A model generated the notes under the pieces. It ran no database searches, was not told the origin of the DNA, and worked only from the letters and a program-made list of their open reading frames with translations. Source: a virus. From it: a DNA stretch of 23,626 bases. The position numbers and the translations under genes are program-made. Location of the stretch: positions 1 to 23,626 of the IMG/VR virus record IMGVR_UViG_3300046747_000030. One strand, given 5' to 3'. How positions within the stretch are numbered: the stretch's first letter is position 1; the number at the start of each line of letters is the position of its first letter. Below are positions 1-23,098 of the stretch, piece after piece.

Positions 1-1486
1 AGAAGAAGTTCGTGCAGCGCGCCTTCAAGTCGCTGGCGACACGAGCGAGTGTTGATGTCCAGTCTCCGGCAACATCCTGTCGGATGATCTTGATGCTCGG
101 GTACCAGGGTGAATCGGTTCGGTCTCTCATCCAGCGCCAGTCAGTTCCGATCTCCGGGATCAGAAGCCAAGTCTCTTTACCCAAACTCCCGGCCAGGTGC
201 GCCACCGAGGTGTCGACCGTGATAATGATGTCCATGAACGCCATCGCGTGCGCCATCGCACGCAAGTCGACCAGCTTGTCACGGATCGAATGCAGCCGGC
301 CGCTACGCCTCAGACCATCGAGTGTGACCTGATCATCGTCTCGCACGTCGTACTGGAACGACACGAAGTCGGCCTTGGCATCCAGGATCGGACCGAACGC
401 CGTGAGCGGGATCGAGCGATGCTTGTCCTGCTTGTGCTGCCTACTCCCCGACCATGCCAGCCCGACCTTGGGGTTGAGATTTTTGCAGATCCCGAGGCTG
501 ACGAGGTACGCACGCATCTCCTCCATGACATCTTTGTTCGGTTCCGGACACCACTCCTCCGGAATGCAGTCCAGTGTGGTCTTAAATGTCATCGGGAGGG
601 AGAGCGCGGGCAGCCAGTAGTCGGTGTCCGGGTAGGCGTCATCCTCAGTAAGTGACGTGACGCCCGGAATGTTGACCAGCGATTGAAGCGGCTTATGTGT
701 AATAAGATACACACGGGCACCGCGATTCACGAGCAGCGGCAGGTACCGGAACATCATGATCGAGTCGCCGATCCCCTGTTCGCAGTGAATCAGGATCGAC
801 TTCCCATCCAAGAATGAGCGACCATTCCACTTCGGCTTCGTGTGCGGCATCGCATTGATGATGACGGACGGAGACTTGAACCGCCATTCGTAGTCCTCAA
901 AGCCACCAAAGTCCCCGACCATCAAACGCGCAATCCCGCGATTGAAATAGGAGTCAGGGAATTTTGGATCGCGCGCGATCGCCATATTGAAGTTGGCAAT
1001 CGCCTCGTGGCTGCGATTGAGACGCGCCAGGATGATTGCCCGGTTAAAGTAGGTCAGAGCGTGATCAGGATCGAGCTTGAGTGCGCGCTCGATGTCGACA
1101 AGCGCGTCATCCAATCTTCCGAGCATCTCTTTGATGTTGGCGAGATTGTTCCAGAACACACCGTTCTCGGGATCCTGCTTGACGCAAATTTCCCACTCCG
1201 CCATCGCTTCCTCTTTCTTGCCGAGGTGCGACAGAGTCATTGCCCGATTGGAGCGGATCATTGCGGACTGACCGCCTGACAGCTCCAGAGCCCGATCAAA
1301 CAACCGATAAGCCTCCACGTAGTCCTTGTGGCACGTGAGCGTGCCGAGCACGTTGACGGCGTGGTAGTTGTCCGGAAAGCGCTCCAGGACCGCATTGATC
1401 ACCTTGAGGGCTTCGTCATCCCTCTGTTTCTCGTGCAGGTCGATCGCGAATTGAATCGTCTCTTCGAGCGTTAGTATGGTTCTCAT
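1..1486 (-). CDS. TPR protein fused to GT9-like (heptosyltransferase-type) glycosyltransferase, partial
   Basis: This gene starts at ATG 1486 and runs off the left edge with no stop, so at least 495 residues are visible. Residues about 5-215 form tetratricopeptide repeats, with typical pieces such as NNLANIKEMLGRLDDALVD and TYFNRAIILARLNRSHEAI. The C-terminal half has the signature of the TPR-linked glycosyltransferase family 9 fold: HCEQGIGDSIMMFRYLPLL, VGLAWSGSRQHKQDKHRSI, VDTSVAHLAGSLGKETWLL and DWRWMRDRTDSPWYPS. Family members transfer sugars from nucleotide donors. In a phage the target could be the host surface, a virion protein, or another protein held by the TPR superhelix; the target is inference. 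The start overlaps the portal stop by four bases (ATGA), so the two are probably translationally coupled. Confidence 0.85.
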   Translation of the reverse strand, partial: MRTILTLEETIQFAIDLHEKQRDDEALKVINAVLERFPDNYHAVNVLGTLTCHKDYVEAYRLFDRALELSGGQSAMIRSNRAMTLSHLGKKEEAMAEWEICVKQDPENGVFWNNLANIKEMLGRLDDALVDIERALKLDPDHALTYFNRAIILARLNRSHEAIANFNMAIARDPKFPDSYFNRGIARLMVGDFGGFEDYEWRFKSPSVIINAMPHTKPKWNGRSFLDGKSILIHCEQGIGDSIMMFRYLPLLVNRGARVYLITHKPLQSLVNIPGVTSLTEDDAYPDTDYWLPALSLPMTFKTTLDCIPEEWCPEPNKDVMEEMRAYLVSLGICKNLNPKVGLAWSGSRQHKQDKHRSIPLTAFGPILDAKADFVSFQYDVRDDDQVTLDGLRRSGRLHSIRDKLVDLRAMAHAMAFMDIIITVDTSVAHLAGSLGKETWLLIPEIGTDWRWMRDRTDSPWYPSIKIIRQDVAGDWTSTLARVASDLKARCTNFF

Positions 1487-4266
1487 ACGTTCGGGGGCGG
1501 CCATGGTGCTTCCTCAGCGGGTGGACCAGCCGGGCCAGCAGGTGGGTGCTTGGCATAGACTGGAACGGCCGCGGTTATCCGACCGTCCGGACCCCGGACA
1601 AAGTCGTAGCGGACTGGCACCTGAACGGGCTCGGGTGGCGGCACCACAATCGATCCTGGCGCTGTTGGCGCGGCCCCTGGCATAGCCGGTGGCTCTTGAG
1701 CTGGGATCGAGGGTGCCGCCGCCGGAGCCGGCATGGGCATGGGCATGGGCGGTTGTTGGGGAGAGGGTTGGGGTGATGGTCCCCCACCAGCCCCCTCCTG
1801 CGGCTGCGCCATCTCGGCGGCCCTGAATTGATTATCGCGCTCGCTCTGCTGTGCTTGCTGGCGATGTCCGGCGACCTGCATGCCGGCGGCGTGGCCCGCG
1901 TCGCGATCACCAGCATTGGCTGTTCGCTCAGCCATGCCTTGCTGGTGTGCTGCGTCGGCTCTGCCGGCCTGATGCTGGGCAATATCCATGCGGACATTAT
2001 GCTGGTGCGTAGCGATCTCCATGCCGTGCTTGTGGCCCATCTCGGTGTGCTGGAGGTCTTGGTCGAGCATGCGATTGGCCTGCTCGCCCTCCGAGTCCTT
2101 GGCACCGAGCGCGGCCTTGGCGACCGCCGCGAGCCCGGTGAGCATCGCGCTCTTGCCGGTGCGATCGTTCTTGGAGATCTTGGACTTGATCTCCTGCGCC
2201 TTGAGATCGAGCAGCGGGTCGCCACCTGAGGGCTGGCCCTGACGGATGAAGCGCTTGCCACCGTCACGATAGCCGGCTGCCCCGAACAACTCTTCCATGA
2301 CGGCTTCTTCGTTCAGCTCAAGCTCGCCGGATTGGAATTTCTTGGACTGGGCAAGGAGCGGAAAGGCGATCGAGGCGGCAGCCTGGAAGCGAGCGATCCG
2401 CTGCTGCGGGTCGCCGGCACCGAGGCCGACATTGACGCGAATGGTGACTTCCTGGCTCATCAGATTGTCGTCAATCTGACTGACACCATGCTTCTGGAAC
2501 AGCTTCGCGCGCGTGCCCGCAAGCCCGAGAACGATCGGATCGTGCTCGTACCACTGCTCCAGGCGCACGAGCTGCGCCAAAACAGGGTTCGTCCAGGTCT
2601 CGATCCACACCCGGATGTCCATTTCCTGGACAGCATTGGCAGATCCGGAGACCAGTTTCAGGCCACCAAGGGTGCGACTGACCGCATTGTTGTGCTCGAC
2701 ACTCTGCGCATTGAACTGGCCGGCGAGATCGTCCATCTCCAGTTCAATGTCCCGCATCACCATCGGCATGGATTGCGGAACGTCGGGCACCTTCTCCCAA
2801 GTGACGTCGTCAGGCTGTGACACCATGATGGATGAACCCGACGCTCGCCTACGCACCTGGTCGAGGTCGATCTGACGACCACGCCGGATCTTGGAAACCG
2901 GCATGGCATTCTGCTTCAGGATATCCAACGACAGGTTGACGAGGTCGTTGATCTCCATCTGCATTGGCTGCCAGCTTTCGACGGGCGACATCGGGAACAT
3001 CCGGTGCGCCTCGATCGAGCCGTAGCCCATCACGAGCGGCCGCTCGCCATCCTGCTCAGGGTAGACGTCGCGGGTCTTTCTTGGATTGGTCAGGAATGCC
3101 TTGTCGCCAATCGACAGGAACGTCCAGTCGCAGCCACCAACGCGCATGAAGGTCTCGGTGACCCACACGATGCGGAAGTTCTGCCCCTGGAGATTCTTGA
3201 AGCGGTCGTTATCGCCCTCGCGCGCCGCGCGCAGCGCCGACACGTCGGCCGCCACATCCTCGGCTGCCGTAAGTAGAATACCGTCATCAACCTTGTTCCA
3301 CGGGTTGATGGGGTGCTTCATCTTGGTTCGCACCTCATCGATCTGCATCGGCCAGCGAATCACCACGAAAGCCGATGTCTGGATCGGATCCGTCCAATCG
3401 GCTGCCGGATCGATGTCCATATTCTCGGGCGGGATCAGGTCGACGGTCGGACGATCGATTTCCGGCTTGTAGACGTCACGAACGATCTTCTGCGGGACCT
3501 GGGTCAGCGGGTCGAGTTGCGTGACAGTCTCACGCTCCTTGCGCAGCTCCAGCTTCCAGCTCTGCTTCGAGAGGCAGATACCGGTCATCAATGAGTCTTG
3601 GCGCGACCCGATCGCGACGGCAAACCAGGGCAACGCGGCGCGGCCAGAGGTCCGGTCAGTTCGATAGTTGACCAGTTGCTCCATTACTGAAGCCGCGCCG
3701 CATTGCATCGGGTTGGCTTCGTCACCGGGGATGCAGTTGATCGCATCTATGTTCCCGAAAAGCGAAGCCACCACGGCCGCCTGATCCTTGCGGATGGCCG
3801 AGCGGGTCTTGGGTCGAAAGATCTTGGAGCGAAACTTGTAGTCAGTAGACGTGTACTTCGAGCCGCTAAAGTGCTCGTTGTGCATGGCGCGAAATGCCTG
3901 CGCCCAGCTCTTCCGATTGATTTGTTGCAGGTACTGGCGAGACTGACTTTGCGCTTCTTTTACGAGCCCGAGAAAGTCGTAATTCTCACTCTCGTCTGGC
4001 TCCTGCTCCGGCAATTCGTCTTGCTGGTTAGCAGCGTAGTTCTCCAGCTCGTCAGAACCGTCTGGTGCGGCCTGCGGCGCCTGCGCGTCGGCTTCGGCCG
4101 GCTCATTGCTCAGCGCATCTTCGCCCGGAGGGGCGCCCACGGGCTCACGAAAACCACCGCCTGGCAGGATGGGTTGCCCCATCGCCTTGAGCGGCAGCGC
4201 ATTGCCAATGTCATTCCCGCCAGCCGTCGATTCGTAATCTTCCAGCGATGGGAATGCGCGCTTCAT
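1483..4266 (-). CDS. Portal (head-tail connector) protein, P22/T7-type
   Basis: This 927-residue protein forms the dodecameric ring at the capsid vertex through which DNA is packaged and ejected. An acidic, disordered N-terminus (about 1-95) precedes the portal core (about 100-690), recognised by stretches such as KFRSKIFRPKTRSAIRKDQA, the wing and crown pattern, and LVNLSLDILKQNAMPVSKIR. The C-terminus is unusual: about 90 residues rich in His and Gln (roughly 720-810), then about 120 residues rich in Pro and Ala including PMPMPMPAPA, encoded by a GGGCAT microsatellite on the plus strand near 1734-1750. This makes it longer than most podoviral portals. It follows a small gene by one base and precedes the TPR-glycosyltransferase with an ATGA overlap. 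The portal call is from fold-typical sequence and context. Confidence 0.85.
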   Translation of the reverse strand: MKRAFPSLEDYESTAGGNDIGNALPLKAMGQPILPGGGFREPVGAPPGEDALSNEPAEADAQAPQAAPDGSDELENYAANQQDELPEQEPDESENYDFLGLVKEAQSQSRQYLQQINRKSWAQAFRAMHNEHFSGSKYTSTDYKFRSKIFRPKTRSAIRKDQAAVVASLFGNIDAINCIPGDEANPMQCGAASVMEQLVNYRTDRTSGRAALPWFAVAIGSRQDSLMTGICLSKQSWKLELRKERETVTQLDPLTQVPQKIVRDVYKPEIDRPTVDLIPPENMDIDPAADWTDPIQTSAFVVIRWPMQIDEVRTKMKHPINPWNKVDDGILLTAAEDVAADVSALRAAREGDNDRFKNLQGQNFRIVWVTETFMRVGGCDWTFLSIGDKAFLTNPRKTRDVYPEQDGERPLVMGYGSIEAHRMFPMSPVESWQPMQMEINDLVNLSLDILKQNAMPVSKIRRGRQIDLDQVRRRASGSSIMVSQPDDVTWEKVPDVPQSMPMVMRDIELEMDDLAGQFNAQSVEHNNAVSRTLGGLKLVSGSANAVQEMDIRVWIETWTNPVLAQLVRLEQWYEHDPIVLGLAGTRAKLFQKHGVSQIDDNLMSQEVTIRVNVGLGAGDPQQRIARFQAAASIAFPLLAQSKKFQSGELELNEEAVMEELFGAAGYRDGGKRFIRQGQPSGGDPLLDLKAQEIKSKISKNDRTGKSAMLTGLAAVAKAALGAKDSEGEQANRMLDQDLQHTEMGHKHGMEIATHQHNVRMDIAQHQAGRADAAHQQGMAERTANAGDRDAGHAAGMQVAGHRQQAQQSERDNQFRAAEMAQPQEGAGGGPSPQPSPQQPPMPMPMPAPAAAPSIPAQEPPAMPGAAPTAPGSIVVPPPEPVQVPVRYDFVRGPDGRITAAVPVYAKHPPAGPAGPPAEEAPWPPPNV

Positions 4267-4267
4267 C

Positions 4268-4738
4268 TCAGGCCCCAGCCATCCGGCGCTTCTTGATGCC
4301 TCCGGGGACCGGTCGCCGCTTCCTCAACAGCTTCGAGTGCTCCTGACGAGCTGACAAAAACGATCCAAGCTCAAAGGCGCCGCGACTAAGGCCGTACCGC
4401 TCCAGGATCTCGCCACCACCACGCATGACGTTCTCTGCCGTCATCTCGTGCTGCTTGAGATTGATCACATACCACGTGGTGACACCCATCAGGATCGGAA
4501 TTGAAATCTTGAGTAGGTGAGCCTTGACATCAGACTGCACCTGCCAGAAGTGACCAGGATAGTGAGTCTTCAGCACCGCCATCGCGCGGCGCGCCACCCA
4601 CATATCGAAGTCCTTAAAAGGGTCGGTTTCGCCTTCGTCGGCTGGCCCGATGTATTGCTCGATGACCGATTGATCCGGGAGTCCCCTGACATGCTCTTGC
4701 GCGTCAAGTCGAGTGATGGCCGGGTCTCCCCTAGCCAT
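4268..4738 (-). CDS. Unknown phage protein, 156 aa, between portal and structural genes
   Basis: I do not recognise this family. The sequence is mostly alpha-helical in character, with a tryptophan-containing segment (FDMWVARRAMAVLKTHYPGH), a hydrophobic stretch around residues 93-110 (ISIPILMGVTTWYVI) and a strongly basic C-terminus (KLLRKRRPVPGGIKKRRMAG). A purine-rich GGAAAG lies nine bases before the ATG. Its stop is one base away from the portal start, so it is in the same operon and probably has a head-assembly or DNA-contact role. That role is inferred from position and the basic tail only. Confidence 0.75.
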   Translation of the reverse strand: MARGDPAITRLDAQEHVRGLPDQSVIEQYIGPADEGETDPFKDFDMWVARRAMAVLKTHYPGHFWQVQSDVKAHLLKISIPILMGVTTWYVINLKQHEMTAENVMRGGGEILERYGLSRGAFELGSFLSARQEHSKLLRKRRPVPGGIKKRRMAGA

Positions 4739-4772
4739 CAGCCAAAGCTTTCCATTTTTTGTTTTTCCTCAA

Positions 4773-5123
4773 TCAACCGCAGTTGATGAATTTTTGGCCA
4801 GTCGCAATGACCACGACCGACGCGCCAGCGACCGTACCAACACGCATGAATCGTGGGTTGAAGCCTGCCGGGAAGGAGAAGATAGTGTTGGCAGCCATAG
4901 GACCAGTGGTTGGAGGGAGTGCTAGGTTAGCCTGGAGCCCAACGAAGTTAGTGCCATCATTTGACACTTCAATCTGCGCCGTTCCGGATCCGATATTGTG
5001 AACCGTGATGCACTCAAGGTCTGAGATGTCTACCGCGGTACCGGTGTCAGAGGTCGTTAGTGTCCATATGAACGCTTTTGTTTTCGAGGTCGATTGATCG
5101 ACCTTTGCATTAAGTGCCCCCAC
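4773..5123 (-). CDS. Small beta-rich phage protein, possible virion component
   Basis: A 116-residue protein with a GTG start preceded by a good ribosome binding site (AAGGAG, eight bases upstream). It is rich in Thr, Ser, Val and Gly and looks all-beta: alternating segments such as AFIWTLTTSDTGTAVDISDL and TAQIEVSNDGTNFVGLQANL resemble the jelly-roll or Ig-like fold of small head-decoration or fibre-attachment proteins. No Cys-based or catalytic motif is visible. Position between terminase and portal supports a structural role, but I do not recognise a named family. Confidence 0.72.
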   Translation of the reverse strand: MGALNAKVDQSTSKTKAFIWTLTTSDTGTAVDISDLECITVHNIGSGTAQIEVSNDGTNFVGLQANLALPPTTGPMAANTIFSFPAGFNPRFMRVGTVAGASVVVIATGQKFINCG

Positions 5124-5285: not shown

Positions 5286-5484
5286 AGGGACCCCTATGGT
5301 ACGGGTTCGAGTAGTGATACTTGCCGCGACCACCCCAGCCGCCGCTGTCGTAAGCCTCGCCCGGGTACTCACGATCGTAGAATTTCTTCTGCGACCAGGT
5401 CGGATCCAGCTTGTTAACCAGCGAAAGCAGCGTGATCGGACGTGTTGAGACTTTGGTTGGCGGCATGTAGCGATTGTCGACCAT
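5272..5484 (-). CDS. Small unknown protein, Gly/Tyr-rich C-terminus
   Basis: A 70-residue protein whose ATG overlaps the large terminase stop by one base (TGATG). The N-terminal half is ordinary (PPTKVSTRPITLLSLVNKLD). The C-terminal half is rich in Gly, Tyr, His and acidic residues (EAYDSGGWGGRGKYHYSNPY) and is probably disordered. Such small genes between terminase and portal are common in phages, but I recognise no family and assign no function. Confidence 0.72.
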   Translation of the reverse strand: MVDNRYMPPTKVSTRPITLLSLVNKLDPTWSQKKFYDREYPGEAYDSGGWGGRGKYHYSNPYHRGPYADE

Positions 5485-7343
5485 CAGTCATCCCCTCCTG
5501 GGACGCCATACTGATCCTCCTGCGAGGCTTCTGTCATGATCGACTCGAAGGCCACCGGAGAGCACGGCTCTATGTCGTAGATGCGTGAGACCGCATCGAT
5601 CAGGTCATCATGCGGGGCGAACGGGAAGAACCGCGCTTCCTCCATGAAAACCCTGGTGAGATCGTAGATATTGCCGTCCTCATCGAGACGCCGCAGCGGT
5701 GTCACAATGCGATGGGACTGCTGAGTGTCTTTCATCCAGCGCTGGGCCTTGGTGAGACCTCGCAGCGGCCGGTACATGATCTGGCCGACGGCCGGGTTAT
5801 TGGCCTTCCCAGCGGCGGCCCATGCGTCGTAGTCTTCCTGTGTCCAAGCTGACCAATACACGGTACCGGGGGTGATACCGATCTGGCGATCGATCGCGGG
5901 GATCGGGTTGTTCTCCATCGCAGGGGGGACCATGTCGGGATGATGCACGAGTGCCGGCATCCGGAATCTTCCGGTCTTGACGTCGGGTTCGAGACGCTCG
6001 ACGCGGTGCTTCTTGGAATGAAGCCCCTCACGCGGGAAGTTCAGCTCTTCGATCTCGAAGTAGACCCGGTCTCTCTCCATGTACTCTTCGAGCACTTCGA
6101 GGTCGACTTGTTGGCCGTACTGCTCGTAGCCGACCTTCACGACCTGAACACCGGGGAAGGAAGACCACTTCTTGTGCAGCTCCTTGATGAAGCTGTAGCG
6201 TGTCGACAGCTTCATGCGGTGGCAGTAGCCATCGAGCAAATATTTGTTGCCGCCTTGATCAATCCCAATCACCGCGATCGCAGTGTTGTCGGATTCGGAT
6301 CCGGAGCGCGTGCTGTGCTTCTTCTTGCCCTTGCTGGGATCGCAAAGGATGTAGACGTTCATCATGGCCGGGACGGTCTCGTATCCCGAGAACCACTCAC
6401 TCAGGAATATCTGTTCATTACCGGCGGTCGGATTGAGCAGCATCTGGGCTGCGACCGTCGACTTCTGCGCGGTCTTGACCTCATTCCAGCGCTTCTGACT
6501 GAGGAAGATGGGATTACCCTTGAGCGTCCCGTCATCCGTAGCCGCGTACCGCCGCTCGCGGAGTGCTTTGCGCTCCAGGATGATGCCGTAGGTATCGCCG
6601 TGGTGATACCGAGTGCCGGCATGCCACTTGCGCGCGCCCAAGTGGGTGGACAAGTTGTCCGACAGCTCCCACATGCGCGTCGTTTTGGTGATCTGGTCAG
6701 GGTTGGTGACCGACTTCTCAGTGACCACGTCATCATAAACCAGCAGGCTGTAGTGCCGCGAGATGGGCTGACCGTCCACAAGCCCATGTGCCTCAACCGT
6801 GGCTTCGCGGGGATTGGATAAGCGTTTGACGATGATCCCTTCTGCTGACCAACGTGGTGATTCAGCCTGCGGGTTTGCGAAGAGAACGTCGTCGAAGACT
6901 TCCTTGAGCTTGCCATTTGCTTCAAGCTCACGCTTGATCTGCTCCAAGAAAGCCTTTGCGATCGGTTGCGTATGCGAAAAGATCGCAACCGTCAGCTCGG
7001 GATCAATCAGGATCTCCTGAATGACACCAGCGAAGGTGATGATCGTCGATTTGTAGTGGTACCGGGCCCACAAATCCAACCAGCCATCCGGATTGGCTTC
7101 GACCTCCCGGCAACGGTCGTATAGCCATGGATGGACAATATCGTGCCGGTTTAGCATATGCGCCAAGAGGAAGAACCGGTCGTTGCAGGCCAAGAAGGCC
7201 AGATCATCGAGATTCTTCGTCTTGTCGGTGAATTCCTTGTAGAAATCGATCGCCTGTTCGAAATCTAGGTAGTGCAGCTCGTTCTCAATAAACTCCGCAA
7301 GCTGCGGATTGTGATTATACCGCTGGGCTTTTAACGAAGGCAT
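5484..7343 (-). CDS. terL: Terminase large subunit (DNA-packaging ATPase and nuclease)
   Basis: A 619-residue packaging motor that uses ATP to pump DNA through the portal and cuts the concatemer. The N-terminal ATPase shows a Walker A-like motif (WARYHYKST, residues 92-100), Walker B (LLVYDD, 200-205) and a coupling motif (AGTRYHH, 242-248). The C-terminal RNase H-like nuclease shows the first acidic residue in CDPSKGK (D335), a middle acidic segment near E407 (VGYEQYGQQ) and the last acidic pair in PHDDLIDAVSRI (D579, D580). Length is normal for the family. It overlaps the end of the putative small subunit by 29 bases and lacks an obvious ribosome binding site, which suggests translational coupling. 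Confidence 0.95.
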   Translation of the reverse strand: MPSLKAQRYNHNPQLAEFIENELHYLDFEQAIDFYKEFTDKTKNLDDLAFLACNDRFFLLAHMLNRHDIVHPWLYDRCREVEANPDGWLDLWARYHYKSTIITFAGVIQEILIDPELTVAIFSHTQPIAKAFLEQIKRELEANGKLKEVFDDVLFANPQAESPRWSAEGIIVKRLSNPREATVEAHGLVDGQPISRHYSLLVYDDVVTEKSVTNPDQITKTTRMWELSDNLSTHLGARKWHAGTRYHHGDTYGIILERKALRERRYAATDDGTLKGNPIFLSQKRWNEVKTAQKSTVAAQMLLNPTAGNEQIFLSEWFSGYETVPAMMNVYILCDPSKGKKKHSTRSGSESDNTAIAVIGIDQGGNKYLLDGYCHRMKLSTRYSFIKELHKKWSSFPGVQVVKVGYEQYGQQVDLEVLEEYMERDRVYFEIEELNFPREGLHSKKHRVERLEPDVKTGRFRMPALVHHPDMVPPAMENNPIPAIDRQIGITPGTVYWSAWTQEDYDAWAAAGKANNPAVGQIMYRPLRGLTKAQRWMKDTQQSHRIVTPLRRLDEDGNIYDLTRVFMEEARFFPFAPHDDLIDAVSRIYDIEPCSPVAFESIMTEASQEDQYGVPGGDD

Positions 7344-8250: not shown

Positions 8251-9114
8251 TCATGCTGGTTCTTCCATCCCTGGTAGGGACGGGGGTTTGGTGGGGAAAG
8301 TCGGCATCGGTGCCGGCTGCGTGCCGGGTGGCTGCGCCGGGTTGCCCTCGTAGACAGGCATCTTGGATTTGTCGCTGTCAGGCTGTGGCGTAAGCCACGG
8401 CATGAGCGGCTCGACCTTGTTCAGGCCGCCAGGGTTTCCATCATTGGGGCCCGGCGTGGGCTCCTGCGGGGCTCCCCCGGAGGGTGTGTAACCAGCCGCG
8501 AAGCGCGAGAAGTCCTGACCGTCATCAGCGCCCTTGTTGTCTTTCTTGTAACCGACGGCGAAGCGTGAGAAGTCCTGCATGGCGTTGTCGGGGTCGCCAC
8601 GCCCAGGCGGGCCGCCCTCGGGAGGCTCGCCGTACCGCCCTAACCGGCGGTCCATGTCGCCCAGTGTCTGATTGGTCAAATTACCGATCGTACCAGCGCG
8701 CGCGAAGTGCGGGTTGCCCTGCATCTCCAGCGGACTGAAAATCTGGTTGTTCGGGGTGTTTGGGTCGTATTTACCGGTCGCCATCTTGGAAGCGCGGTAG
8801 GGTCCGAAGTGGTGCCCCATGTAGAGTTCGGAATTGGTCGGCGTGCGCCCCATCCGCTGCGTCATGTCGTTGCGCAGCTCGTTTTCGTACTTGGCGAAGC
8901 CTGTCGACTGATGCGCGACGTCGCCGCCCTCTCGGATCCCGTACTGGTTCCGGAGAGCCCGTGTCATCTGATAGAGTCCGCGGATCGTGCCGGTACCGCC
9001 AGAGTTCGGATTGAAGTTCGATTCACGCGACGCAGTCGCTAGCGCGAAGGAAGGGTCCTGCCCAATCGACCGGTAGTAGTCGATGATCTGCTGGCGGACA
9101 TCATTAGTCGACAT
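8251..9114 (-). CDS. Lytic transglycosylase-like virion protein with repeated DFSRFA segment
   Basis: From ATG 9114 this is 287 residues. Residues about 10-110 have a soluble lytic transglycosylase character: SFALATASRESNFNP contains the likely catalytic Glu, and GLYQMTRALRNQYG matches the fold's second conserved stretch. Such enzymes cut peptidoglycan so that DNA can cross the cell wall during entry. The C-terminal third is Pro/Gly-rich and disordered and contains two copies of QDFSRFA[VA]GY about 22 residues apart. A start at 9147 is also open but adds a poor N-terminus (MRSARRSLKSA). No signal peptide is seen, consistent with virion delivery rather than export. The gene overlaps the upstream gene by 11 bases. 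Confidence 0.78.
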   Translation of the reverse strand: MSTNDVRQQIIDYYRSIGQDPSFALATASRESNFNPNSGGTGTIRGLYQMTRALRNQYGIREGGDVAHQSTGFAKYENELRNDMTQRMGRTPTNSELYMGHHFGPYRASKMATGKYDPNTPNNQIFSPLEMQGNPHFARAGTIGNLTNQTLGDMDRRLGRYGEPPEGGPPGRGDPDNAMQDFSRFAVGYKKDNKGADDGQDFSRFAAGYTPSGGAPQEPTPGPNDGNPGGLNKVEPLMPWLTPQPDSDKSKMPVYEGNPAQPPGTQPAPMPTFPTKPPSLPGMEEPA

Positions 9115-9392: not shown

Positions 9393-9578
9393 TCACTTGC
9401 CTCGCCCGAAACCCTTCAAGGTCTCGGCCAGGTTGGCTTGCTTGCGAACCTTCGGGTTCGAACTCTTGGTCGCGGCCGCGATCTTGGCCGGGGGGATCTT
9501 CTGCCCCTCGGGCACGCCGAGGCTGCGGTGGAGGCCGCCCTTGTTCTTGACGGCGCCTGCAATCCAGTTCTTTGCCAT
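9393..9578 (-). CDS. Small basic conserved-type phage protein (KNWIAGAVK ... LKGF)
   Basis: A 61-residue protein with 14 Lys/Arg residues. The order KNWIAGAVKNKGGLHRSLGV, PEGQKIPPAKIAAA, NPKVRKQANLAETLKG is the pattern of a short uncharacterised family frequently seen near phage structural genes. It is probably a small helical nucleic-acid or protein binder. One base separates its end from the next gene's start region. Function unknown. Confidence 0.8.
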   Translation of the reverse strand: MAKNWIAGAVKNKGGLHRSLGVPEGQKIPPAKIAAATKSSNPKVRKQANLAETLKGFGRGK

Positions 9579-9579
9579 G

Positions 9580-9828
9580 TCAGTACACTCCCAACTTCTT
9601 GGATTTGCCCTTACCCTTGTCGCGGAAGCGCTGCGCGATCGGGGGCGGACCAGCCATCGGTGCCGACGGCGGACCTTCCATGTCGGCCGGGCTCTCCTCG
9701 AACGCGGCCGGTGTCATCTTGGCCTTGCGAGCCTGACGCATGTCCTGCGACTTCTCGGCCGCGGTATCCTCGGCCTCATACTGCTCACCAGCCATCTGCG
9801 GAAGATGGCCCTTCGTGAATTTCGCCAT
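9580..9828 (-). CDS. GEQY-motif small protein 3
   Basis: An 82-residue, mostly disordered protein with the motif AGEQYEAED at residues 13-21, followed by an Ala/Glu/Lys-rich helix and a Pro-rich, then Lys-rich tail (DKGKGKSKK). It is the last of three consecutive small genes with a shared GEQY-acidic motif. The ribosome binding site AACGGAG is encoded by the last codons of the upstream gene. No family recognised. Confidence 0.78.
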   Translation of the reverse strand: MAKFTKGHLPQMAGEQYEAEDTAAEKSQDMRQARKAKMTPAAFEESPADMEGPPSAPMAGPPPIAQRFRDKGKGKSKKLGVY

Positions 9829-9829
9829 G

Positions 9830-10063
9830 TCAGGCTCCGTTATTGTTGCTGTCGTTGTCGTACTGCTCGCCGGAGAGGCTCGGGAGCGATGGGGTAGCGG
9901 GGGCAGTGGACTTGGCAGGGCCGGCGAAATTCTTGATCTGGATCATCTTGGAATTCGCCTCGTCCTTCTCGTCCTGGCTCTGAGCAGCCGGCTTCGCCGA
10001 AGGATCTTTGTCGTTGTTGAGCTTGCTCGTCATGCCGCCCAAAAATGCGCCGATACCAGACAT
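9830..10063 (-). CDS. GEQY-motif small protein 2
   Basis: A 77-residue protein with a short hydrophobic Gly-rich N-terminus (MSGIGAFLGGMTSKL), a charged middle, and the motif LSGEQYDNDS at residues 63-72 close to the C-terminus. It shares LSGEQYD-x-D with the upstream gene although the codons differ. AACGGAG lies a few bases before the ATG, inside the upstream gene's terminal codons. Function unknown. Confidence 0.78.
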   Translation of the reverse strand: MSGIGAFLGGMTSKLNNDKDPSAKPAAQSQDEKDEANSKMIQIKNFAGPAKSTAPATPSLPSLSGEQYDNDSNNNGA

Positions 10064-10064
10064 C

Positions 10065-10307
10065 TCATTCTCCGTTATAACGTGGGCGCCATCGCCCCTG
10101 AACCGCCATGCGCGACCTCGTAGAAGCCACAGCCCTGGCTGTCTCAGCCTCAGTCGCTTCAGTCGGAGGTGGATCGCGCCGGTCCTCGATATTGTCGCTC
10201 ATCGGCATTTTCCCATATGGGTCGCCGTCGTACTGTTCACCTGAGAGCGCAATCTGATCAGGCGTCTTGTCACCCTTCTTTGGGCTCCTCGGTATCATGT
10301 CGGACAT
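10065..10307 (-). CDS. GEQY-motif small protein 1, first gene of the packaging operon
   Basis: I choose ATG 10307 because AAGGA lies seven bases upstream; the longer frame to 10436 would need a TTG start. The 80-residue product has a basic N-terminus (PRSPKKGDK), the motif LSGEQYDGDP at residues 21-30, an acidic middle and an Arg-rich C-terminus (GRWRPRYNGE). It is the first gene after a 207-base gap, so a promoter for the left-hand operon is expected just upstream. Function unknown. Confidence 0.78.
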   Translation of the reverse strand: MSDMIPRSPKKGDKTPDQIALSGEQYDGDPYGKMPMSDNIEDRRDPPPTEATEAETARAVASTRSRMAVQGRWRPRYNGE

Positions 10308-10514: not shown

Positions 10515-10832
10515 TCACGTCATAGAAATCGGAAACTGATCCATGTACTCACGGATCTCACCGGCGACTGCTGCGTAGCCGGCGCCGTCGATGTAGTCGT
10601 CATTGTTGGTGGTGCCGGTGAGTCGCCTGGCGACCTTCAGCAGCTCCATCATGTTGGCCACGTCCTCAGCATCGAGGCTGAATGGATCCTTGCCAGAGAC
10701 CTCGCGGGCCAGGATGTAGCCCGTCCAAACCGCCGCGATCGCCGCGTGGTTGGTGAATTTGTTGCCGTGTGACGCCTCCCGGTCTCCTTTAACCAGGCGC
10801 GCTGCTTCTGTAGCGATCTCATGAGCTTTCAT
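10515..10832 (-). CDS. DUF6378-like phage protein
   Basis: A 105-residue protein matching a phage family I know as DUF6378: ATEAARLVKGDREASHGNK, then NHAAIAAVWTGYIL, then ANMMELLKVARRLTG and DDYIDGAGYAAVAGEI. The conserved Asp, His and Asn residues and the helical layout suggest a MazG-like or other nucleotide-linked all-alpha fold, but the family's function is not established. The ATG overlaps the upstream SprT-like gene's stop by four bases. Confidence 0.82.
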   Translation of the reverse strand: MKAHEIATEAARLVKGDREASHGNKFTNHAAIAAVWTGYILAREVSGKDPFSLDAEDVANMMELLKVARRLTGTTNNDDYIDGAGYAAVAGEIREYMDQFPISMT

Positions 10833-21178: not shown

Positions 21179-21364
21179 TTACCCGCCCGATCCTTCACGA
21201 TCACCGTACTGTAACCCCGCCGTGCGATCCCGGATGATGAACTCCTCAAGCGACGGCATGAGCGCGGCCGTGCGCCCACACGCCTTCTCGTAGAGTTCGA
21301 TGTAGTGGTTCAGCTCTTCCGGGGTGACCGCGACATCACCCTGCTTGATGATTCGAATCCCCAC
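21179..21364 (-). CDS. Small unknown protein, 61 aa
   Basis: A GTG-start protein with GGAG nine bases upstream. It reads IRIIKQGDVAVTPEELNHYI, ELYEKACGRTAALMPSLEEF, ending in a Gly-rich tail. The beginning overlaps the upstream paralogue gene by 29 bases. No family recognised. Confidence 0.68.
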   Translation of the reverse strand: MGIRIIKQGDVAVTPEELNHYIELYEKACGRTAALMPSLEEFIIRDRTAGLQYGDREGSGG

Positions 21365-21722
21365 CTATTGTATCTCCCCCGTCCCACGCCTCGATCGCAT
21401 CCGCGATCTGACTGAACGTCATCCCATGATCGTCGTTCATGTACGCCAACCGCCCCATCACATCATTCGGCAGCCCAACCTTCTTGGCGAAGCGCGCGGA
21501 CGGGAAACCGTGACGGGAATAGTCATCGTGCCGAGGACCATCCATATCGTGGACATAAACCCCTGGTATGTATGATTCTGTCCACTTGTCAGGTTCCACC
21601 ATGTCGCATAGGACCCCGATGCAACAACACTCGTTTTTCTTGCCCCGCAGATTTCTGGCACCCTGTGTGTAATTCCCGGACCGTAATGTCGCGGCCCACC
21701 AGTCGCGCAGTGATTTCTTCAT
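21336..21722 (-). CDS. Phage protein of the W-x-x-x-L-R-S-G / C-[CI]-G-V-L-C-D family, copy 1
   Basis: A 128-residue protein with DWWAATLRSGNYTQG, ECCCIGVLCDMVEPDKW and, at the end, YMNDDHGMTFSQIADAIEAW. The gene at 22426-22833 has the same three blocks in the same order, so the two are paralogues. The pattern is common among phage small proteins that I have no function for. The Cys cluster may bind metal or form a redox site. ATGA overlap with the neighbouring gene. Confidence 0.82.
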   Translation of the reverse strand: MKKSLRDWWAATLRSGNYTQGARNLRGKKNECCCIGVLCDMVEPDKWTESYIPGVYVHDMDGPRHDDYSRHGFPSARFAKKVGLPNDVMGRLAYMNDDHGMTFSQIADAIEAWDGGDTIGGDSNHQAG

Positions 21723-22084: not shown

Positions 22085-22429
22085 TTACTCAATGTGCTGC
22101 CACGGTACGCCCTTGGCGCGCGCAACGCGCAGCATGTCGGCTGTCCCCTTACCGCCCTGAAAGGCGAGAACGTGGGTGGGCTCGAACTCAGCCAGCATCT
22201 GGCGGTTGCGGATCGGGCCCGCCGCTTTTCCGTGTTTTGTCCAGTCCGCCCTGAACACATGGGTCTCGATCTTGTGTCGGGCAGCCCACTCGCCCGCCAG
22301 CGTGTCAGCGCCTGGGGCCCCGCCGTGCGCCATCATGACGATGGGATCAACCACGTGGTAGCACCGGAGCACGAAGCTCATCAGGGTGACGTCGCTGAAG
22401 AGACGCCCACCGCAGACCAGCAGTCTCAT
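22085..22429 (-). CDS. SLOG/DUF2493 (YspA-like) nucleotide-binding protein
   Basis: ATG 22429 overlaps the upstream stop (ATGA), giving 114 residues. The Rossmann-like SLOG fold is recognisable by LLVCGGRLFSD, MMAHGGAPGADTLAGEWA, and ADWTKHGKAAGPIRNRQML with LAFQGGKGTADML. SLOG proteins bind nucleotides or nucleotide-derived ligands such as ADP-ribose; some act in antiviral signalling. In a phage the protein could bind or sequester such a signal, which is inference. Confidence 0.88.
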   Translation of the reverse strand: MRLLVCGGRLFSDVTLMSFVLRCYHVVDPIVMMAHGGAPGADTLAGEWAARHKIETHVFRADWTKHGKAAGPIRNRQMLAEFEPTHVLAFQGGKGTADMLRVARAKGVPWQHIE

Positions 22430-22833
22430 GTCGACTGCGTCGCTACTGCCGGATGGTCCCACGCCTCGATCACGTCGGCGATCTCGGCAAACGTGCTGCC
22501 TTGATCATTGAGCGAACTCAACTGCACGGAGCGCCGACTCGACAGTCCAGCCTTTGCACTTATATCCTGGGCCGGGTAGGATGCCATGTGGCGGTGGGGA
22601 ATGGACCGCTGCGGATCGAGGGACATCGGGTTGTCGCCGTAGTAGCTCGTCCAACCCTTCGGGTCGACCACATCACACAGCACCCCGAGACAGCACATCG
22701 CCCCGGTGCCGTCGCGCATCTTGCCCTTGGTCTGACGATAGGCTCCCGACCTCAGGGCGGCGACCCACTTGGCCTTGATGTCCGGGTCCATCTTCCAGTT
22801 GCGTTGCGGGTCGTAGGGATCATCATCCAGCAT
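22426..22833 (-). CDS. Phage protein of the W-x-x-x-L-R-S-G / C-[CI]-G-V-L-C-D family, copy 2
   Basis: ATG 22833 has AAGGAG eight bases upstream, giving 135 residues. The blocks KWVAALRSGAYRQTKG, AMCCLGVLCDVVDPKGW and SSLNDQGSTFAEIADVIEAW match copy 1 at 21336-21722. Outside these blocks the two differ strongly. The N-terminus (MLDDDPYDPQRNWKMDPD) is acidic and specific to this copy. Function unknown. Confidence 0.82.
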   Translation of the reverse strand: MLDDDPYDPQRNWKMDPDIKAKWVAALRSGAYRQTKGKMRDGTGAMCCLGVLCDVVDPKGWTSYYGDNPMSLDPQRSIPHRHMASYPAQDISAKAGLSSRRSVQLSSLNDQGSTFAEIADVIEAWDHPAVATQST

Positions 22834-22855
22834 TCTGCTCGCTCCTTGTAACCGC

Positions 22856-23098
22856 TCAGTGTAGAGCGGACCATAGCCGTCGGTTGCGGATACACACCAC
22901 CCAGAGAGCCGCATTCATAGGCAGCAATCCCCAAGTGCCGGTGAGACAGATCCATACCAACCAGAGTGCCTGATTCGCCAGTGCCAAGTCCCAAGTCCAT
23001 GGGTGCCGGCTTCCGGCCATCCACATCTGCGCCATGGTGATGAGACTCAACGTCCAAGGTAGGGTGGTTGCCAGCACGTGTGTGTAGGCTAGTTCCAT
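22856..23098 (-). CDS. Phage membrane protein, 80 aa
   Basis: Three hydrophobic segments fit membrane helices: ATTLPWTLSLITMAQMWMAG, ALANQALWLVWICLTG and WGLLPMNAALWVVCI. The pattern TMAQMWMAGSRHPWTW, LANQALWLVW, GLLPMNAALW is one that I recall from small membrane proteins in many phages. Its role (holin-like, superinfection exclusion or other) is unknown. It starts inside the end of the upstream gene with a 10-base overlap. Confidence 0.8.
   Translation of the reverse strand: MELAYTHVLATTLPWTLSLITMAQMWMAGSRHPWTWDLALANQALWLVWICLTGTWGLLPMNAALWVVCIRNRRLWSALH

Follow-up and report, generated by a model that had tools for sequence, protein, structure and literature searches.

The window (the whole stretch of DNA analysed here) comprises 23,626 bases and is an entire IMG/VR virus record, which probably covers part of a genome; almost all of its likely genes lie on the minus strand. 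Three small genes in it, A, B and C, abut one another at a spacing of 1 base, each with an ATG and a ribosome site of the GGAG/AAGGA type (the ORF starts being our choice), and each encodes one copy of a short GEQY-acidic segment, hereafter the tag. These genes and the features around them are as follows.

10065-10307, minus strand: gene A, 80 aa, disorder-prone, without family match
10221-10247, minus strand: tag in A, CTC TCA GGT GAA CAG TAC GAC GGC GAC, encoding LSGEQYDGD at residues 21-29
9830-10063, minus strand: gene B, 77 aa, disorder-prone, without family match
9851-9877, minus strand: tag in B, CTC TCC GGC GAG CAG TAC GAC AAC GAC, encoding LSGEQYDND at residues 63-71
9580-9828, minus strand: gene C, 82 aa, the tag followed by a two-unit domain of a widespread family of small phage proteins
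9769-9795, minus strand: tag in C, ATG GCT GGT GAG CAG TAT GAG GCC GAG, encoding MAGEQYEAE at residues 12-20
9679-9774, minus strand: two-unit domain of C, residues 19-50, [WYF]E.S..D..QDK..AKK.GMS...[WYF]E.S..D
9393-9578, minus strand: gene D, 61 aa, without the tag, with homologues in L077 and L082
8251-9147, minus strand: transglycosylase-type protein (PHROG 4067) whose C-terminal tail contains two copies of DFSRFA
5484-7343, minus strand: terminase large subunit, TerL (PHROG 38), which served to place the phage among its relatives
1483-4266, minus strand: portal (Pfam SU10_portal)

On re-reading the sequence, the three ORFs of the original prediction, with [LM][SA]GEQY[DE]x[DE] at residues 21-29, 63-71 and 12-20, were recovered exactly. 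All three proteins consist to 75-79% of disorder-promoting residues; in an AlphaFold2 (AF2) model of C (built with 19 relatives; mean pLDDT 57, low confidence), a helix is predicted at residues 23-35, and GEQY (residues 14-17) lies inside a segment with pLDDT below 50. Among the GEQY codons of A, B and C, every nucleotide difference falls at a third codon position, so that the protein, not the DNA, is conserved, as had been claimed. The description of the three proteins as otherwise different also agrees with the comparisons made after masking of the tag, in which no significant similarity was found (A-B, p 0.08; A-C, p 0.93; B-C, p 0.09) in tests of low power with proteins this short.

The shared tag is far above chance. 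The pattern GGNGARCARTAY occurs 3 times in the window, against a mean of 0.06 in shuffles and never 3 times in 100 of them, and the best three-way block of 9 residues in A, B and C scores 101. The corresponding block score averaged 48 (sd 5.8, maximum 69) in 300 composition shuffles, and reached at most 77 in 1,500 random triples of the relatives' small ORFs and 73 in 1,994 neighbouring triples from the same locus. Chance is thus excluded, because the pattern shuffles, the composition shuffles and the triples of real small ORFs all fall short.

Only C shows a recognizable domain. Against the two-unit profile it scored 20.6 bits, a value to compare with 2,000 shuffles of C that did not exceed 10.0, and it retains the invariant residues E20, D29, A33, K35, M38, E44 and D49; A (-1.9 bits) and B (0.2 bits) do not match the profile. 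A DNA pattern of the two-unit core gave at least 120 matches in IMG/VR, and C belongs to this widespread and undescribed family of small proteins, for which neither PHROG nor Pfam gave an entry at the thresholds applied. A direct search with protein C against IMG/VR and GenBank phages returned no match, and the PDB search gave nothing significant. The first small protein of L077, a relative treated below, scored 65 against C (shuffles 32 +/- 5), so that C has the two-unit domain in common with an L077 protein that carries a different tag (EF), the tag preceding the domain in C and coming after it in the L077 protein. No member of the family aligned here except C carries GEQY. The idea of several two-unit proteins per genome was rejected, no fetched locus having two; in MW202496.1, a possible member (weak match, E 7) has TerL on one side and the head-to-tail connector on the other.

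The trio had been placed at the head of the packaging operon. Its nearness to the packaging genes holds, but the very head does not, since further genes stand between it and TerL, namely D, E, the transglycosylase-type gene, a 67-aa ORF and a putative TerS, over about 2.2 kb. Upstream on the same strand are DUF6378 and SprT-like genes (the labels TerS, SprT and TPR are our reading of the sequence), the DUF6378 protein (10515-10832, minus strand) being directly upstream of A at a gap of about 207 bases. The DFSRFA copies of the transglycosylase-type protein (8497-8514 and 8557-8574, minus strand) are in its disordered C-terminal tail, and two or three D[FL][SA]xFG-like repeats were seen in this tail in 14 of 25 relatives (e.g., L031, L076, L081, L082 and L101). 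After the portal gene comes a protein resembling a TPR-repeat glycosyltransferase, at 2-1504 (minus strand) in the window and at 3303-4775 on the reverse complement of L289; a TPR protein of similar look is found near the capsid gene in the relative G001. Two further proteins of the window (22426-22914 and 21336-21722, minus strand) are paralogous, their best block having 22 identities in 51 residues.

The portal and terminase of the window are far from those of GenBank phages. In IMG/VR, 17 records have portals 46-55% identical to that of the window and at least 80 have similar terminases, mostly 45-59% identical; among genome contigs there was no portal relative and a single weak terminase match (33% over 66 residues). 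The original prediction had named absence of the motif from related phages as the observation that would refute it, and on that measure it would fail for GEQY itself. DNA coding for GEQY was missing from 17 of 19 portal-relative records, the two matches in this set being in a protein of another kind or off-frame. No small packaging-region protein in the loci of 98 relatives (1.2 Mb) contained GEQY, nor did the record of the nearest relative, L090, the terminase sister of the window (support 94/86); GLTGEQARF in a small protein of L090 was regarded as unrelated. When 2.9 million viral contigs were scanned, with a pattern blind to AGY serine codons and to forms that lack the trailing acidic residue, 16 unrelated stretches appeared, close to a rough chance estimate and none in a small packaging-region protein. 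As far as searched, the GEQY trio is found in this genome alone. Since no relative yielded a comparable protein with GEQY, the tag cannot be said to be conserved from genome to genome, in a comparison limited by the fragmentary nature of the records and the quick turnover of small genes.

A tag of the same kind, with other residues, does exist in relatives. The EF tag, EF[STD]xx[QE]Exx[ML]R, was first seen in the present analysis, where it came up during the search for orthologues of C. It is present in 11 small, disorder-prone proteins of six virus records (L071, L077, L081, L082, L087 and L269); a record has as many as three of them, often encoded by neighbouring genes, and the place of the tag within the protein varies. 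In L077, the form F[ST][AP]D[QE]E[KQ]x[ML]R recurs in three small proteins (residues 54/90, 13/57 and 9/135); L081 has two adjacent carriers (24/76 and 11/68) with a third about 10.7 kb off in that genome; two adjacent carriers are present in L082 (residues 13/91 and 40/79), and one each in L087, L071 and L269. Six-frame translation of the relatives' loci added one match only (L059). A degenerate DNA pattern found 10 sites in 20 whole records, all in EF-tag proteins, with none for a reversed-pattern control, and a narrower pattern found 8 stretches in IMG/VR, most of them in the EF-phage group. After masking of the tag, the adjacent pairs P2-P3, Q1-Q2 and R1-R2 showed no similarity; in P2-P3 and Q1-Q2 the EF codons differ mostly at third positions. 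The EF phages that have a terminase, five in all, group together in a single clade of 16 rows (support 100/98), and the window is outside it. The EF-tag genes lie near TerL or the capsid gene; that of L269 follows the major capsid gene by about 1.5 kb, a homologue of the latter being present in 15 of 15 relatives tested (the capsid label is given by place, by presence in all 15 relatives and by likeness to annotated neighbours, without a family search). Like GEQY, the EF tag is carried by small disorder-prone proteins, up to three per genome, at shifting positions, but it is made of different residues. Identity of the two was rejected, as the EF PSSM gives the GEQY site no significant rank in A, B or C; GEQY and EF are two different motifs, parallel in their behaviour.

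We tentatively favour, at just short of an even chance, the reading of the GEQY-acidic segment as a short linear tag, specific to its lineage, for docking onto a shared partner, putatively a procapsid component. One copy on each of three unrelated, mostly disordered proteins would allow all of them to bind the same folded partner. The tag is proposed to bind a protein and to co-evolve with it, which would make it lineage-specific, and the related clade has a different tag (EF) in neighbouring small genes of the packaging region. A conserved segment of 9-11 residues, movable among unrelated disordered proteins, has the look of a short linear motif for a common partner, an idea that the sequences of both groups support. 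The original prediction of a short motif for a shared partner thus holds as regards its mobility between unrelated disordered proteins and gains a parallel in the EF tag, but not as regards the occurrence of GEQY in related phages; the case draws on one genome and, by analogy, on the EF tag. The partner may be the portal, scaffold or capsid protein, which would recruit the small proteins into the head. Location makes a virion partner plausible, the trio having portal, terminase and transglycosylase genes in its neighbourhood and the L269 EF gene being near the major capsid gene. The ejection protein gp20 of SU10 has transglycosylase activity (PMC9509320), and the transglycosylase-type gene near the trio is neighbourhood evidence for a virion or ejection context.

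It is somewhat unlikely, in our estimate, that A, B and C arose instead from one small protein by duplication, rearrangement and divergence, with the tag as the last recognizable remnant, which would then probably still be under selection. Such remote paralogy would account for the adjacency of the three genes and for the likeness of A and B over about 15 residues around the tag (TP....LSGEQYD.D, 10 of 15 identical), and the masked scores of A-B and B-C are slightly high (the p values of 0.08 and 0.09 given above). Tagged true paralogues also exist in a relative, as masked comparison of the EF-tag pair Q2-Q3 revealed. Against common descent speak the varying position of the tag (21, 63 and 12), the loss of all similarity between A and C upon masking, and the match to the two-unit family in C alone.

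The docking partner may also lie outside the virion, for example, among host proteins (polymerase, chaperone, protease or defence factor) or among the phage's own proteins for replication or lysis. Host factors are frequent targets of small variable phage proteins, but the genes sit with the terminase, transglycosylase and portal genes, and in relatives also close to the capsid gene, and we regard a non-virion partner as unlikely. Far less probable is a prohead-protease site, in which [SA]-G-E would be cut after the glutamate during head maturation and the motif would mark precursors incorporated into the head. The tripeptides SGE, SGE and AGE agree with the A-X-E and S-X-E rules for the proteases of giant phages (PMC5694885), but these rules do not demand the conserved QY[DE]x[DE] beyond the cut, and the SU10 virion paper contains neither 'protease' nor any word in 'cleav-' (PMC9509320). 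No Peptidase_S78 was found in 15 relatives, though the window record may itself be incomplete. The protease reading is weak. A DNA- or RNA-level element (operator or recombination site) translated by accident, as might be imagined from three copies on one strand within about 480 bp, is extremely improbable given the same reading frame relative to each gene and the confinement of the GEQY differences to third positions.

The docking-tag reading is worth comparing with the capsid-targeting sequence (CTS) of phage T4. The T4 internal proteins IPI, IPII and IPIII are highly diverse and have in common only a short segment that brings them into the head (PMC3012670), the CTS being an N-terminal propeptide of 10-20 residues (PMC5694885). 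The GEQY trio is alike in this respect, being small proteins of a single phage that are otherwise different and have one short segment in common. The GEQY tag, however, begins at residue 12, 21 or 63 and is not N-terminal, and packaging and cleavage would here be putative steps; it is therefore not classed as a CTS, which it may resemble in outline. A doubtful extension is that clade-specific, interchangeable tags constitute an address code, by which any small gene, once it has acquired the tag of its phage, would have its product brought to a single virion component. If so, the docking site could stay constant while a variable set of small, perhaps injected, proteins is swapped rapidly, and the principle known from T4, a single targeting segment conserved among hypervariable proteins, would extend to phages with SU10-type portals and to internal, movable tags. 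An address label of this kind would also allow sets of functionally linked small phage proteins without detectable homology to be found from sequence alone, and would make co-packaged or injected proteins predictable.

Several further features were seen in the genomes of the relatives. An in-frame stretch of about 1 kb that resembles an intein interrupts the terminase gene of L090 (5029-7902), and the capsid genes (MCP) of L090, G003, G021 and G033 look interrupted. The records L023 and L024, which come from different samples, both start within the terminase gene at residue 126/127, and this near-identical start may mark a real genome end. Finally, two small ORFs of L036 (7306-7518 and 8879-9007) have in common a 34-residue block with 32 identities (DPNFERDKHHEIEYEFSGRWF...), apparently the result of a recent duplication.
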